A stretch of DNA of 64,000 nt, taken from NCBI RefSeq assembly GCF_000487995.2, contig NZ_CP097562.1:1175001-1239000 (forward strand), written 5' to 3'. A program made the translations under genes and the position numbers. Origin of the DNA: Mucispirillum schaedleri ASF457. Lineage in GTDB: Bacteria > Chrysiogenota > Deferribacteres > Deferribacterales > Mucispirillaceae. The notes beneath the pieces are model-generated. The model worked only from the letters and a program-made list of their open reading frames with translations. It was not told the origin of the DNA and made no database searches. Every line of letters begins with the position of its first letter. Position 1 is the first letter of the stretch. Of the stretch, positions 2,806 through 44,756 are shown piece after piece.

Positions 2806-3640
2806 TAATCAGCTCTTTTATTGCTCTGCGTGCTTTTGAAATAGTATCTATACTTTCATCTACTGCCATATTATCACATTTTCTAAGTATTTCCATAAGA
2901 TGAGCAATACGGGGGAGCCTTAAATCATACTTTCTTAATTCATCAGCCTGCAAAAATATTTCCTCAGGACTTCCCTGCATTACAACACATCCTTTATCAA
3001 GCACATAAGCATAATCACAGTATAGTGGCACAATATCCATTTCATGAGTTGCTGTAATTATAGTAGTGCCTTTTTCCTGATTTATTTTTTTAAGCAGCAC
3101 AAGTATTTCATTTGCTCCCATTGGGTCAAGCCCTGCTGTCGGCTCATCTAAAATAATAAGCTCTGGCTCCATAACAAGCACTCCAGCTATTGCCACCCTT
3201 TTTTTCTGACCAAAACTTAAAGTATGGACAGGTCTTTCCATAAAATCATACATTTCTACATCTTTTAATGCTTTTTCTGCCCGCTGCTTTGCTTCTACCT
3301 GCGATAAGCCAAGGTTTAATGCACCAAAAGAAACATCTTTTATAACACTTGCTGAAAAAAGCTGGTCATTAGGGTCTTGAAAAACTATACCTATATTTTT
3401 GCGGATTTCTGCAATTCCTTTTTTATTATATTCTACTAACTTATCATTAAAATATACACTGCCTTTATCTTTTATATTTATACCATTTAATGTTAAAAAA
3501 AGAGTTGATTTACCTGCACCATTCCTGCCAAGGACAGCTGTTATACTGCCCCTTTTTATATTAAGAGATATGTTATTCAGGGAAAGCTCATCATCATAAG
3601 AAAAACATAGATTTTCACATTTTAATATACTTTCACTCAT
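2789..3640 (-). CDS. cbiO: Cobalt ECF transporter ATPase CbiO
   Basis: This is the ATP-hydrolysing subunit of the CbiMNQO energy-coupling-factor cobalt importer, on the cytoplasmic face of the inner membrane. Visible motifs are Walker A GRNGAGKST (about residues 38-46), the signature LSFGQKKR, Walker B LIILDEPTAGLDP and the switch histidine in TATHEMD. LSFGQ in place of LSGGQ is usual in CbiO. Its start overlaps cbiQ by 4 bases and its end overlaps cbiD by 17. The 283-residue length is normal. Confidence 0.95.
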   Translation of the reverse strand: MSESILKCENLCFSYDDELSLNNISLNIKRGSITAVLGRNGAGKSTLFLTLNGINIKDKGSVYFNDKLVEYNKKGIAEIRKNIGIVFQDPNDQLFSASVIKDVSFGALNLGLSQVEAKQRAEKALKDVEMYDFMERPVHTLSFGQKKRVAIAGVLVMEPELIILDEPTAGLDPMGANEILVLLKKINQEKGTTIITATHEMDIVPLYCDYAYVLDKGCVVMQGSPEEIFLQADELRKYDLRLPRIAHLMEILRKCDNMAVDESIDTISKARRAIKELINGKNN

Positions 3641-6002: not shown

Positions 6003-7208
6003 ATGATAAAAAAAATTTTAAAATATTTTATATACACTCTTTCATTTATTATTTTATTTTCATTATTAATATGTTTTACAGTGTGGAGCATTATTCCTGT
6101 ATATAAATTTCCTGAAGCAGTGTCTTTTACTGGTGATAAATTTTATAACCCTTATAAAGATTATGATAACACACACTACTATCGTGCAAACTTTCACGGG
6201 CATTCAAGGCTTGGTGGCGGGCTGACTAATGGCAGAGCAAACAGTGAAGAAGATGTATTTAAAGCATACCGCGATTTAGAATACGGCTTTGCAACAGTTT
6301 CCAACTATCATCATATTACAAGCAAACCACCATATTATGATTTTCCTTATGTGCCTGCTCAGGAATACGGTATTAATATTTTTAAAACTCATTTACTGCT
6401 TATAGGCACTAAAAGAAAAGAATATTTTGACCAGCCACTATGGCAGGGTGCAGACACTATACAATACCGCATAAATAGAGTTAAGCCATATAATGAAATA
6501 GTAACTCTTGCCCATCCTGCATTTGTAAATGGTATAGAAGTAGATTATATGGCACAGATTACAGGATATGATTTAATGGAAGTTGTTAATACTTTTGCAA
6601 ACTCTGTTTCACACTGGGATAAAGCTTTATCAAGCGGCAGACCAGCTTTTTTACTTGCAAGTGATGACACTCACAATGTATTTAGAAATACAGATATTGG
6701 CAGAAATATTACTATGATACCATTAAACCCAGATACAGAAGCAGATAAATTATATGATACATTAAAAAGCGGTGCGGCTTATGCTGTTACTGTTCCCCAT
6801 ATTATTGCTATACTTGATAGAAGCGAAAAATTAAAAGTTTTAAATACTCATCCACAGCTTTTATCTATGCAGGTTGCTGATAATACTTTAAATATTAAAT
6901 TAAATAGAATGGTAGATAAAATTGTTTTCTCTGCAGATAATGGTCAAGTCATGGCTGAATATGACAATGTTTCTGAAAGCTCATATAATATTGCAGATAA
7001 TAACAGCTATGTTAGAGCAACAGTTTATTTTGACAATGGCTCAACAGCTTATTTTAACCCAGTAATAAGAACTAATAATGGGGGGGGGCTGAAACCTGAT
7101 ATGCCACAGGTATTAGTAAATTATCCTTTAAGTATTATTAAGTGGATATTTACAGCTGTAGTATTTTTGTCTATACTTTATTTTATTGCCAGAAAATTAA
7201 AAAAATAA
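6003..7208 (+). CDS. Membrane-anchored PHP-fold (metal-dependent phosphoesterase-like) protein
   Basis: The 401-residue protein has an N-terminal membrane segment (about 5-28), a PHP-like domain and a C-terminal membrane segment (about 378-397). PHP features are FHGHS (an HxH metal motif near 64-68), SNYHH near 100, TLAHPAF near 170 and ASDDTHN near 220, all consistent with a di- or trinuclear metal site. The substrate is unknown; the domain probably faces the periplasm. Codons 360-362 are a run of nine G (7080-7088) just before the C-terminal helix, so slippage there would remove the second anchor. It is a single gene with GGAG near the ATG. Its neighbours are unrelated by function. Confidence 0.7.
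   Translation: MIKKILKYFIYTLSFIILFSLLICFTVWSIIPVYKFPEAVSFTGDKFYNPYKDYDNTHYYRANFHGHSRLGGGLTNGRANSEEDVFKAYRDLEYGFATVSNYHHITSKPPYYDFPYVPAQEYGINIFKTHLLLIGTKRKEYFDQPLWQGADTIQYRINRVKPYNEIVTLAHPAFVNGIEVDYMAQITGYDLMEVVNTFANSVSHWDKALSSGRPAFLLASDDTHNVFRNTDIGRNITMIPLNPDTEADKLYDTLKSGAAYAVTVPHIIAILDRSEKLKVLNTHPQLLSMQVADNTLNIKLNRMVDKIVFSADNGQVMAEYDNVSESSYNIADNNSYVRATVYFDNGSTAYFNPVIRTNNGGGLKPDMPQVLVNYPLSIIKWIFTAVVFLSILYFIARKLKK
7080..7088. repeat. Homopolymeric G9 tract inside the PHP gene
   Basis: Nine consecutive G in a roughly 30% G+C background, in frame as three Gly codons. It is a candidate slipped-strand (phase-variation) site; gain or loss of one base changes the C-terminal 40 residues. Confidence 0.85.
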
Positions 7209-18650: not shown

Positions 18651-20156
18651 TTAGTCTTCCTTTATATATGGCATAGTTATTGTAAAACATGTCCATAAAT
18701 CTTTTAATGAAGATACATGCAGCTGCCAGCCCATAGAATCTATAAAACTTTTTACTATAAAAAGCCCAAGACCTGTGCTGTTTGATTTTGTTGTCCAAAA
18801 AGGCTGAAATATATCCTGCATTATATAATCAGGTATTCCGCAGCCGTTATCTTTAATGCTCACAGAAAGCATTCCACTTTCTGCTGTATCTGATAATGTT
18901 ATTTCTATTTTATTGTTATCTCTGCCATTAAATGCTGATAGTGAATTAAGAAGCATATTCAATATAATCTGCTTAAATCTATTACTGTCGCATATTATAT
19001 AATAATCTTGACTACTTTTAATCGTGTAACTTACATTATGCCTGCGAAAATTAGGCAGAAGCAATGAAACTGATTCGTTAATTAAATTATTTATACAGTG
19101 TTTTTCATTTATTACATCATTTTTCTTGGATACAGAAAGCAGATTTCCTATTAATTTATTAATTCGCTCAGTTTCATCAGAAATGATTTTTGTATATTTT
19201 ATAATAGAATTGTCGCTGCTGCTTTCTTTTATAAGGTCTGAAAAACCTTTTATAGACATAAGCGGATTTTTTATTTCATGAGCTATGCTTAAAGTAATGA
19301 AACTGCCTACAAGCATATTTTCTGCTTTTAACATTCTTGTTTCTATTTCTTTCTGCTCTATAAACTGGTTGGAAAGTAAATTTATTGTATTATTAATTTC
19401 GCCATATATTCCCTGCATCTGCGGCAGTCGGATACTGTTATCTGATGATATACATTTAATGTAATCATTTAAGCTTCTTATATACTTTTTATCATTATAT
19501 TTGAATAGTAATATACTGAAAACTGCAATACCTATACCTATGAGAATAGATACAGCTATGGCAATATTTACATACATTGGGAATAATTCTTTATTTATAT
19601 TCTCATCAAGTTCCACAGCCCATATATAGCCAATAGATTCATTATTTCTTATAATAGGAAAAAAGACGGCTATTCCATTACCCCATACTAACTCCCCCCC
19701 CCTGTATGAAATCCACTGTTTAGTTGCCATAGCTTCCCGCCCATTGTGGTTTTTGCTTATAGGCATACCTATAGTCCAGTTCATTTTTTCAGATGGAGAA
19801 TATGTTATTATTGCATCAAGTTCCTTACTGTAATAGCCTATGCCTGTATCTTTAAATCCTGATACAACAGTATCAGATACAGGGGATAACTCTTTTGATA
19901 ATACTTTAATTTTATCTTCTTTAGAAGCATTCTGCATATTATATTTTTCAAGTATTGTATCATAGTCAGAAGTTAATAACTTATCAAGTGTATTAGCTAT
20001 ACCATAAAGCTTATTTGTCTTTTCCTCTACTATCCTGCCTGAAACATATTTGCTTAATACGAAACCAGAAGCAACAGGTGGAATAAAAATAAGCATAAAA
20101 AACACAATAATAGCTGCATCTATATTTAATAATTTACTCATGCAAACTGACCGCAT
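18651..20156 (-). CDS. Membrane sensor histidine kinase (AtoS-like)
   Basis: A 501-residue kinase. Two transmembrane helices (about 10-35 and 193-217) flank a periplasmic sensor domain of about 155 residues. A HisKA domain has His293 in SIAHEIKNPLMSIKGF and an HATPase_c domain has NMLLNSLSAF, DNGCGIPDY and STGLGLFIVK. It is the cognate partner of the adjacent sigma54 regulator. Codons 152-155 contain a C9 tract on the plus strand (G9 in the gene) inside the sensor domain; a one-base change would truncate the protein before the kinase domain. A second in-frame ATG at 20141 is an alternative start. Confidence 0.88.
   Translation of the reverse strand: MRSVCMSKLLNIDAAIIVFFMLIFIPPVASGFVLSKYVSGRIVEEKTNKLYGIANTLDKLLTSDYDTILEKYNMQNASKEDKIKVLSKELSPVSDTVVSGFKDTGIGYYSKELDAIITYSPSEKMNWTIGMPISKNHNGREAMATKQWISYRGGELVWGNGIAVFFPIIRNNESIGYIWAVELDENINKELFPMYVNIAIAVSILIGIGIAVFSILLFKYNDKKYIRSLNDYIKCISSDNSIRLPQMQGIYGEINNTINLLSNQFIEQKEIETRMLKAENMLVGSFITLSIAHEIKNPLMSIKGFSDLIKESSSDNSIIKYTKIISDETERINKLIGNLLSVSKKNDVINEKHCINNLINESVSLLLPNFRRHNVSYTIKSSQDYYIICDSNRFKQIILNMLLNSLSAFNGRDNNKIEITLSDTAESGMLSVSIKDNGCGIPDYIMQDIFQPFWTTKSNSTGLGLFIVKSFIDSMGWQLHVSSLKDLWTCFTITMPYIKED
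19694..19702. repeat. Homopolymeric C9 (G9 in the gene) tract inside the sensor kinase gene
   Basis: Nine consecutive C on the plus strand, read as Arg-Gly-Gly-Glu codons 152-155 of the kinase. It is in frame in this sequence and is a candidate slipped-strand switch. Confidence 0.85.
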
Positions 20157-40926: not shown

Positions 40927-42411
40927 CTAATCGCTTAATTTTAAAAATACAGTGTCTTCATAAAGCTCTGCACAGTTAGACGAAGGATATACGGGCATAC
41001 TTTCAATTAGTTTTTTTAAGTCATCAGGTGCACGAGATATATCTTTATTAATTATAATGCTGTTTAGTTTAATTTTTTCAGGAAGCCCCATAAGTCTTAA
41101 AAAACCATAAATTCTATGCGGCATTAATCTGCCACAACAGAAAAAAGAAGTATAAGCTAATGAGCCAGATGACTGTTTTAAATAATGTTTATTAGGTGTA
41201 ATGCTTCCATAAAATGCTATCTTATATTCACCTTTAAATATTTCTGGATATTTTGTATATATAATATCAAGTATTTTAGCAGCTGTCATTTTATCCTGTT
41301 CATACATAAGTTTGGCTGTGTTTTGGAGTTTTATATTACTTGATGTATTAACTGATATAATTATCAATGCAAATATCACAGCAATGCTTTTTAATATATT
41401 ATTATCCTTAAAAATATATAATAGTAAAAATATAAATGCTGGAAAAATAGCAAGTGGTGTCCTTGTTCTTTCAGTATTAATATTACCCATTAAAATTATT
41501 AAAGAATAAACAGCTAAAATAAAAAGAATAGATAAAAATATAAAAAATAATCTTTCTTTTATTTTTTTGAAATTAAACACTGCATATAAAACTGTTACAG
41601 CAGTATATAAATAAAACCATATATTAATAAATATAAATTTAGTTATTTTAATAATTATTTCTTTATAATCAGCATTATCTATAACCCAGAGAATTTGGTC
41701 AGTAAAATAACTTCTTATTTTTACTGTACCCATTTTATAAACTATATAATATATTATAAGTGATACTAATAATATCAATGTGCTTTTAATAATTAACATA
41801 AATGCTTTTTCTATATTTTTATCATTTATAAAATTAAGTATTACATTTAACATCATAACAGATAAAAAGACTGATACATTAGATTGATAAGATGAAACAC
41901 CAATAAAAAGCAAAAACACAGCAAGTAAATACATAAAAATATTTTTATTATTTTCTATTAATCTAAATGCTGCAGCAGCAAATAATAAGCCAATAAAGTT
42001 ATAAGCAGATTGAAAAAAGAAATGCTGCAAATATGTAAAATAAGTGGAGCTTATAAAAATAATAATAAATAAATTTTTTCCAGTGTTAGATACATTATGG
42101 CGGGATATTATTATAAGGGCTGCAAAGATTAATGATATAACACCAGTAAGCTGAGAAATAATATTGTATGAAAGAAAAGGAAATAAATTATGTAATATTA
42201 ATGACCCATAACGCTGCATTACAAACTGTTCAGTATAAGGACCATAAGCAGAATCTACTCCAAATTTAAAGGTGAATATGTCTATGGAATTAATTAATAT
42301 GCCAGAAATAAAAGATATTATTAAAACATCCCTATATTTTTTAAAAAATTCCTGAATATTTATTCCTGTATTATATATGCTTGTATTAACTTTTTCTAAG
42401 CATTTATACAT
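40927..42411 (-). CDS. GtrII-type polytopic glucosyltransferase
   Basis: A 494-residue membrane protein with about ten or more hydrophobic helices and a soluble C-terminal part (from about 370). SAYGPYTEQFVMQRYGSL near 52-69, IGVSSYQSNVSVFLSVM and GNINTERTRTPLA match the Glucos_trans_II family, which modifies O-antigen from the periplasmic side; the family call is by pattern, not by a search. The ATG at 42411 has AAGGTG upstream; an upstream TTG is less likely. Transcription starts from a promoter whose spacer is a G9 tract, so expression is probably phase-variable. It is not linked to other glycan genes here. Confidence 0.65.
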   Translation of the reverse strand: MYKCLEKVNTSIYNTGINIQEFFKKYRDVLIISFISGILINSIDIFTFKFGVDSAYGPYTEQFVMQRYGSLILHNLFPFLSYNIISQLTGVISLIFAALIIISRHNVSNTGKNLFIIIFISSTYFTYLQHFFFQSAYNFIGLLFAAAAFRLIENNKNIFMYLLAVFLLFIGVSSYQSNVSVFLSVMMLNVILNFINDKNIEKAFMLIIKSTLILLVSLIIYYIVYKMGTVKIRSYFTDQILWVIDNADYKEIIIKITKFIFINIWFYLYTAVTVLYAVFNFKKIKERLFFIFLSILFILAVYSLIILMGNINTERTRTPLAIFPAFIFLLLYIFKDNNILKSIAVIFALIIISVNTSSNIKLQNTAKLMYEQDKMTAAKILDIIYTKYPEIFKGEYKIAFYGSITPNKHYLKQSSGSLAYTSFFCCGRLMPHRIYGFLRLMGLPEKIKLNSIIINKDISRAPDDLKKLIESMPVYPSSNCAELYEDTVFLKLSD

Positions 42412-42442
42412 TGCCTGCACCTTTATTAATAAAATCAAGGGG

Positions 42443-42469
42443 ATTATATCATGGGGGGGGGAATGTCAA
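42443..42469 (-). promoter_or_regulatory. Consensus promoter with a poly-G/C spacer (phase-variable) for the GtrII-like gene
   Basis: On the minus strand -35 TTGACA (42469-42464) and -10 TATAAT (42448-42443) are both perfect. The 15-bp spacer contains a run of nine C (plus strand G 42453-42461). The ATG lies 32 bases after the -10. With two more bases in the run the spacer would be the optimal 17 bp. Confidence 0.8.
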
Positions 42470-42483
42470 TAAAAATATTTATT

Positions 42484-42915
42484 TTGGACTTATCCAAAAA
42501 AATTGGACTAAGTCATTTTGAGCCTGATTTTTAAAGGCGAAAAATCTAAATTATATATTAAAGCAGTGTATAATATATTTAAATTAGTTTATTCTTTTAG
42601 ATACATTGCATTATCACTCTTAGTAAGACACGGCAGCAGATTCATTAAGACAATGCAGGGACAGGAAGTCCCGTCTGAAAGTAAGCGACGGAAGCATTTA
42701 CTGCGACCAAGCGTAGTTTTTCAAATTCAAGGGGAGTGTTTTTTGCGATGCAAGGACTTTCCGAGCGAGTAGTGATGGAATCAAAAGTCCGTAGCTGGAC
42801 AGTATTTGAAAATAAAAGATAAATTAAATTACTTCGCCTTTTACTTTCAGTATGACCTAATTTATTTCATAAGCTCTTTATATGGATTAGTCTAATTTTT
42901 TTGGGTAAATCCATT
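42484..42915. repeat. Long dispersed element, subfamily 2, flanked by IS-like ends
   Basis: The outer edges read GGACTTATCC and, inverted, GGATTTACCC, each followed by an AAAAAAATT run and GACTA; they resemble the left end of the IS at 59571. Inside are the element's left end (GTCATTTTGAGCCTG from 42513), an inner right end near 42630, the hairpin GGGAC-AGGAA-GTCCC (42658-42672), the core GTCTGAAAGTAAGCGA (42673-42688), a stem GGACTTT (42754-42760) / AAAGTCC (42784-42790) and an outer right end finishing near 42856. The open frame across it is not conserved as protein. Confidence 0.85.
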
Positions 42916-44366: not shown

Positions 44367-44756
44367 TGGACTTACAAATTTTGTGTATCAGTCATTTTGA
44401 GCCTGATTTTTAAAGGCGAAAAATCTAAATGATATATTAAAGTAACATATAATATATTTAAATTATATACTTTTTAGATACTTATTCTTATCACTCTAAG
44501 TAAGACAGATAAGCAGGTTTATTAAGACAATACAGGGACAGGAAGTCCCGTCTGAAAGTAAGCGACGGGAGTATTTATTGCGACTAAGCGTAGTTTTTCA
44601 AATTCAAGGGGAGTGTTTTTTGCGACGCAAGGAATTTCCGAGCGAGTAGCGATGGAATCAAAAGTCCGTAGCTGGACAGTATTTGAAAATAAAGAATCAA
44701 TTAAACTACTTCTCCTTATCACTATCAGTAAGACAGGGAAGTATTCTCAGTATGCC
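44367..44756. repeat. Long dispersed element, subfamily 2, second copy
   Basis: Closely matches the 42484-42915 copy. It begins TGGACTTACAAATTTT, has GTCATTTTGAGCCTG at 44391, the hairpin GGGAC-AGGAA-GTCCC (44535-44549) and the core GTCTGAAAGTAAGCGA, with CCCGTC/GACGGG (44547-44552 with 44564-44569) closing it. The right end near 44734 is degraded. It fills the gap between rseP and the TetR gene; no other gene is seen. Confidence 0.85.

Follow-up and report, generated by a model that had tools for sequence, protein, structure and literature searches.

A promoter in Mucispirillum schaedleri ASF457, whose two perfect consensus hexamers are held apart by a spacer containing a run of nine C's, is probably phase-variable (we put this at roughly 0.7) and of the type in which a homopolymer within the spacer sets the distance between the -35 and -10 elements. 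The promoter lies upstream of a gene for a GtrII-family membrane glucosyltransferase, and whereas the first-pass annotation of this DNA treated it as a single case, it has turned out to be one of a multi-locus class, with ten siblings in this genome when the GtrII promoter itself is counted and about 60 of the same design across eight further genomes of Mucispirillum and a related genus.

Anatomy of the promoter and its target

All coordinates below refer to the window, the whole 64,000-nucleotide stretch of DNA that was analysed, unless a genome position or another locus is given. The features of the GtrII promoter and its gene are as follows.

42470..42490, minus strand: UP-element-like A/T-rich stretch 5' of the -35 (sequence, and A/T enrichment in 71 aligned promoters)
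42464..42469, minus strand: -35 hexamer TTGACA, perfect consensus (sequence)
42463-42462, minus strand: TT between the -35 and the C run (sequence)
42453..42461, minus strand: C9 homopolymer in the spacer, with C on the non-template strand (sequence; sibling promoters match in position and orientation)
42449..42452, minus strand: ATGA at the 3' end of the spacer, its TG at 42451-42450 giving an extended -10, TGnTATAAT (sequence; TGn recurs across the class, see below)
42443..42448, minus strand: -10 hexamer TATAAT, perfect consensus (sequence)
42418..42424, minus strand: probable ribosome-binding site AAAGGTG, 6 nt 5' of the ATG (judged from the sequence)
40927..42411, minus strand: GtrII-family membrane glucosyltransferase, 494 aa, a single-gene unit between rpsA and rseP and facing rpsA (Pfam PF14264)

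Read directly, the minus strand from 42469 to 42443 is TTGACA TT CCCCCCCCC ATGA TATAAT, where CCCCCCCCC is the C9 run, in exact agreement with the perfect hexamers, nine-C run and 15-bp spacer already annotated. The spacer is the sum of 2, 9 and 4 bases, so that the two-base slippage proposed earlier as giving 17 bp corresponds to C11. The -35 and -10 that flank the homopolymer make up a recognisable promoter, whose gene begins close by, the ATG at 42411 being 31 nt 3' of TATAAT, and in anatomy alone the earlier comparison with the design of porA and opc holds good. A feature absent from that annotation is a perfect extended -10, TGATATAAT, which arises from the spacer-terminal TGA. It was considered whether the promoter forms part of a dispersed intergenic repeat that lies 5' of it, and this was rejected as matches to the repeat begin at about 42475, outside the promoter. 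Copies of this repeat are found at 42511-42856 and 44390-44734, on both sides of rseP, and are about 70-91% identical to dozens of sites elsewhere in the genome.

The identity of the target as GtrII-like, also proposed previously, is borne out by a match to the Pfam profile PF14264 (Glucos_trans_II) with E=2.1e-18 and 66.9 bits against a curated cut-off of 30. A protein search found no GtrII relatives in named genomes; a search of the genome collection recovered homologues in other species that are 33-44% identical, sit at other sites and have no C-run promoter, one of which (L216) has a G9 run within its own reading frame in place of such a promoter. Four species share the rpsA-rseP gene order but have no GtrII gene at the site, and GtrII as a target of a C-run promoter is therefore, to judge from these comparisons, species-specific.

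Enzymes of the GtrII type require undecaprenyl-phosphate glucose, which GtrB synthesises and GtrA flips. Partners of both kinds are present, all unlinked to GtrII: GtrA genes occur at three places in the genome, of which one near 1.907-1.909 Mb forms a gtrB-gtrA pair and another, near 2.079 Mb, likewise adjoins a GtrB-like gene. In the latter the frame of the GtrB-like glycosyltransferase beside GtrA is broken by a G11 run (L061, 3056-3066), so that donor supply from this pair may also be subject to phase variation. The system therefore resembles the serotype-converting GtrII enzymes of the Shigella type in its membrane glucosyltransferase family (PF14264) and in having GtrB- and GtrA-like partners in the genome, and differs from them in that there is no gtrABC operon, no phage context was seen, and the gene stands alone with its own C-run promoter.

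A class of C-run promoters in the genome and the genus

All 54 C/G runs of at least 7 in the 2.347-Mb genome were examined with their flanks. TTGACA lies 0-5 nt 5' of the C run at 10 of the 54, where 0.06 would be expected (Poisson p about 2e-19), and beside none of the 54 in the opposite orientation. It could be supposed that promoter-like hexamers and a homopolymer have come together by chance, as TTGACA followed by TATAAT is a common arrangement in a genome of 31% GC; indeed TTGACA-N10-20-TATAAT has 23 matches compared with 35 for the reversed control, and the hexamer pair is therefore without enrichment. It is for this reason that the GtrII site is notable through its C run, which the spacers of seven of the 23 matches share in addition to the GtrII promoter itself. 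Given the excess and the strict orientation of TTGACA beside C runs, and the recurrence of the design in eight more Mucispirillum species, coincidence is hardly credible and can be regarded as refuted. The runs themselves are maintained and are not the tail of a random length distribution, since 49 are of at least 8 and just 5 of exactly 7. Within the window there are 9 overlapping matches to a C7 pattern (in three runs) where 0.74 would be expected, a number that none of the shuffled sequences reached.

A -10 can be recognised in nine of the ten C-run promoters in this genome. The exception, at genome position 1921193, is a broken twin of the one at 1933225, with near-identical upstream DNA, C10 as opposed to C11 and no good -10. 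When a looser -10 is allowed, eight of the nine other Mucispirillum genomes contain from 3 to 11 such promoters each and one other genus of the family contains six, with none in one Mucispirillum genome that is 57% complete and none in four genomes of the family's third genus; the reversed pattern gave three matches in total in the same genomes. With the strict -10, no genome in a sample of 118 contained the pattern outside Mucispirillum and one related genus.

A set of 71 promoters was collected together with the genes downstream, of which 66 targets were scored, the calling of targets being mechanical. The C run varies and the rest of the spacer is stereotyped, its other bases summing to 6 in 54 of the 71 however they are divided (TT/ATGA, AAT/GTT or AAAT/GT), hence a spacer of n+6. 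Upstream, positions -4 to -10 relative to TTGACA are A/T-rich in the 71 aligned promoters. The TGn of an extended -10 is present in 48 of the 71, and in 39 of the 46 that have a 15-bp spacer, and a start codon is found 20-35 nt 3' of the -10 in 38 of the 66.

A lipobox-like motif was found in 45 of 66 class products compared with 16 of 300 background proteins (p = 5e-28, a value that overstates independence as the 66 include many relatives of one another). GtrII is the sole glycosyltransferase recognised by name or sequence among the targets, a minority of which were scanned with Pfam. Most targets of the class are thus predicted lipoproteins, with GtrII the exception. The balance tips towards a genus-wide family of contingency promoters, 3-11 per genome and built from TTGACA, about nine C's, six further spacer bases and TAtaAT, often with an extended -10, which would randomly shuffle the expression of many surface lipoproteins.

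Run length and the proposed direction of switching

The ten promoter runs in the closed genome comprise one C7, one C8, four C9, three C10 and one C11, giving spacers of 14-17 bp, and across the class spacers range over 12-17 bp and so span the 16-17 bp preferred by ordinary promoters. Orthologous promoters with near-identical flanks differ in length, one pair having C9 and C7 (L251 and L264) and another set C9 and C8 (L204 as compared with L252 and L263), and homologous lipoprotein genes of the MKKSLL family have promoter runs of every length from C7 to C11, their spacers being 14-17 bp; homopolymer lengths in assemblies may be off by one or more. The commonest form in the class combines C9 with a 15-bp spacer; indeed 52 of 61 class promoters from metagenome-assembled genomes have C9. 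As C9 was the sole allele found for the GtrII locus, its exact flanks being absent from viral contigs, slippage at that locus itself is something that we infer.

The mechanism that we propose is that slippage during replication adds or removes C's between the -35 and the -10 and so changes both the spacer and the strength of the promoter, with C9, C10 and C11 corresponding to 15, 16 and 17 bp. At C9 the promoter would be weak, the extended -10 TGATATAAT permitting basal firing, and at C10-C11 it would be stronger; on this view the class would rest at low activity, one or two slips short of its optimum. In the sub-population with a favourable length, GtrII would glucosylate a surface glycan with the help of the unlinked GtrB and GtrA. 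We infer both the direction of the effect on expression and the glycan phenotype.

It is well established that sigma-70 promoters favour spacers of 16-17 bp. In ordinary upstream regions of this genome, near-consensus pairs are in excess at 16 and 17 bp (18 and 22 where about 8-9 would be expected), with a smaller excess at 14-15 bp, none at 18 bp and an unexplained one at 10 bp (22 compared with 9). A sharp optimum at 17 bp was rejected, as the excess is modest and falls at both 16 and 17. Because ordinary promoters favour these spacings, the promoter is probably strong at C10-C11 and weaker at C9. It would be too simple to describe C9 as off, since an extended -10 is present and the C9/15-bp form predominates; the extended -10 may keep up basal expression, such that the promoter would act as a volume control and not as an on/off switch.

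The main rival to this polarity is that the promoter is indeed switched by slippage, with C9 and 15 bp as the high state by virtue of the extended -10 and a strong -35, any gain or loss of C's then lowering expression. The dominance of C9 in nature and the TGn of most class promoters would fit such a scheme, which we nevertheless think unlikely in view of what is known of sigma-70 and of the spacing profile of this genome, both of which favour 16-17 bp, and of a sibling at genome position 1933216-1933244 that stands at exactly 17 bp and two others with an intact -10 that stand at 16.

Several observations weigh against phase variation altogether: the C9 found in so many assembled promoters may be a stable functional state, the presence of MutL should lower slippage, and the extended -10 may blunt any dependence on spacer length. 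MutL is present in this genome and in all Mucispirillum genomes tested, and so loss of MutL, considered as the cause of the many runs, was rejected. Taken further, the class could be of fixed promoters in which C9, a 15-bp spacer and an extended -10 form a conserved working promoter or a site for a regulator, with lengths other than C9 representing errors or decay. The high frequency of C9, the six other spacer bases kept regardless of how they are split, the concentration of TGn in promoters with 15-bp spacers, and a mode of C9 with 15-16 bp in unrelated gut Clostridia too, among the matches listed, are all in keeping with this. However, C9 is the commonest length among runs outside promoters as well (29 of 44 in this genome) and is therefore not specific to promoters, orthologous promoters differ by one or two C's within nearly identical flanks, ordinary promoters prefer longer spacers, and a fixed promoter has no need of a pure C run. 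We consider fixed promoters improbable, slightly more so than a switch of inverted polarity. In Campylobacter a bias to insertion at 8-9 G and to deletion at 10-11 G has been reported (study cited in PMC4085013), and as slippage biased in this way would pile runs up at 9, the predominance of C9 need not be functional.

Other runs and relation to known systems

Promoters account for only some of the C/G runs, as about 40 further runs are found in the genome, many of them inside genes for glycan synthesis, chemotaxis, respiration and restriction specificity. Mucispirillum genomes of reasonable completeness contain 18-49 runs of at least 8 each, compared with 73 in the related genus that has six of the promoters; in the rest of the order there are mostly 20 or fewer, with one family varying from 6 to 74. 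Their distribution is uneven, with one of the 49 falling in the first quarter of this genome (1-585 kb).

Within the window, a C9 on the minus strand at 7080-7088 lies near the 3' end of an ORF for a 401-aa membrane protein (6003-7208, plus strand, no Pfam match), a candidate for C-terminal phase variation, and a C9 on the plus strand at 19694-19702 lies in a histidine kinase gene (18651-20156, minus strand) 5' of the HisKA domain, a candidate phase-variable sensor. Similar sequence surrounds a G9 run at four loci (L065, 2800-6000; L031, 608-616; L039, 3044-3052; L042, 2954-2962), three of them with a Tat-signal start (SRRSFLKG); L065 encodes a molybdopterin oxidoreductase in an open frame, L039 and L042 stop shortly 3' of the run and L031 has no long frame. 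These are possible phase-variable respiratory reductases. A C8/G8 run (L034, 2946-2953) coincides with the end of a 206-aa frame for type I restriction specificity (Methylase_S) and might make DNA specificity phase-variable. Two copies of a VgrG-like gene (type VI secretion spike) in L066 begin at C/G runs, one of 7 (3085-3091) and one of 9 (7026-7034); the first reads as a 99-aa frame, and Pfam confirmed the second alone.

The region L047 (genome 1447200-1465000) has six C/G runs in 12 kb, several of which are within glycosyltransferase and MBOAT O-acyltransferase genes, and is better evidence of glycan variation than is the GtrII promoter. The earlier suggestion that the organism varies its surface glycan stands in so far as such genes contain C/G runs, but draws little from a promoter class whose targets are mostly predicted lipoproteins; it would seem to rest more on the intragenic runs than on the GtrII promoter.

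Among the matches listed, many uncultured gut Clostridia and scattered members of other phyla also have this promoter pattern. Three genomes of about 0.8-1 Mb labelled as Clostridia or Firmicutes (G119, G136 and G137; L068, L103 and L105) have 8-9 TTGACA-C9-TATAAT promoters each and none with the reversed control, and these unrelated gut commensals with small genomes may have converged on the design or share it by transfer.

Campylobacter and Helicobacter likewise live in gut mucus; their genomes are small and AT-rich and contain dozens of G/C runs, the mode of which is near 9 and some of which are intragenic in glycan genes. Mucispirillum resembles them in niche, in its many G/C runs with a mode near 9 and in having runs inside glycan genes, and differs in that a sizeable share of its runs (10 of 54) lie in promoter spacers. 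The GtrII promoter belongs by its anatomy with porA and opc of Neisseria meningitidis and fetA of the gonococcus, in which a G/C run lies between the -35 and the -10 (van der Ende 1995, Sarkari 1994 and Carson 2000, as cited in PMC5084427), and length-dependent, reversible expression is predicted for it. Shared with these is a G/C homopolymer in the spacer 5' of a surface-related gene, where slippage would be expected to alter spacer length and promoter strength. The Mucispirillum class differs in having 3-11 copies per genome of a stereotyped design (six other spacer bases, a mode of C9 and a frequent extended -10), in targets that are mostly predicted lipoproteins and in its phylum, Deferribacterota. 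The mechanism is familiar from Neisseria, whereas no report of phase variation was found for Mucispirillum or, evidently, for Deferribacteres in the subset of the open-access literature that was searched, nor did the genome paper for the genus mention it on a word search. The class as a whole points to a previously unnoticed system of random on/off switching.

Mucispirillum is a core bacterium of mouse-gut mucus that has been linked with inflammation (PMC5285517). Selection on phase variation could be followed in a commensal through run length, which can be counted directly in sequence reads, and such promoters are worth seeking well outside Neisseria and Campylobacter. The genus-wide set of lipoprotein promoters is a more interesting result than the GtrII locus: if the interpretation is correct, slippery lipoprotein promoters together with about 40 other C/G runs would make the surface of this organism a moving target for immunity and phages, and clonal gnotobiotic strains would not be uniform.
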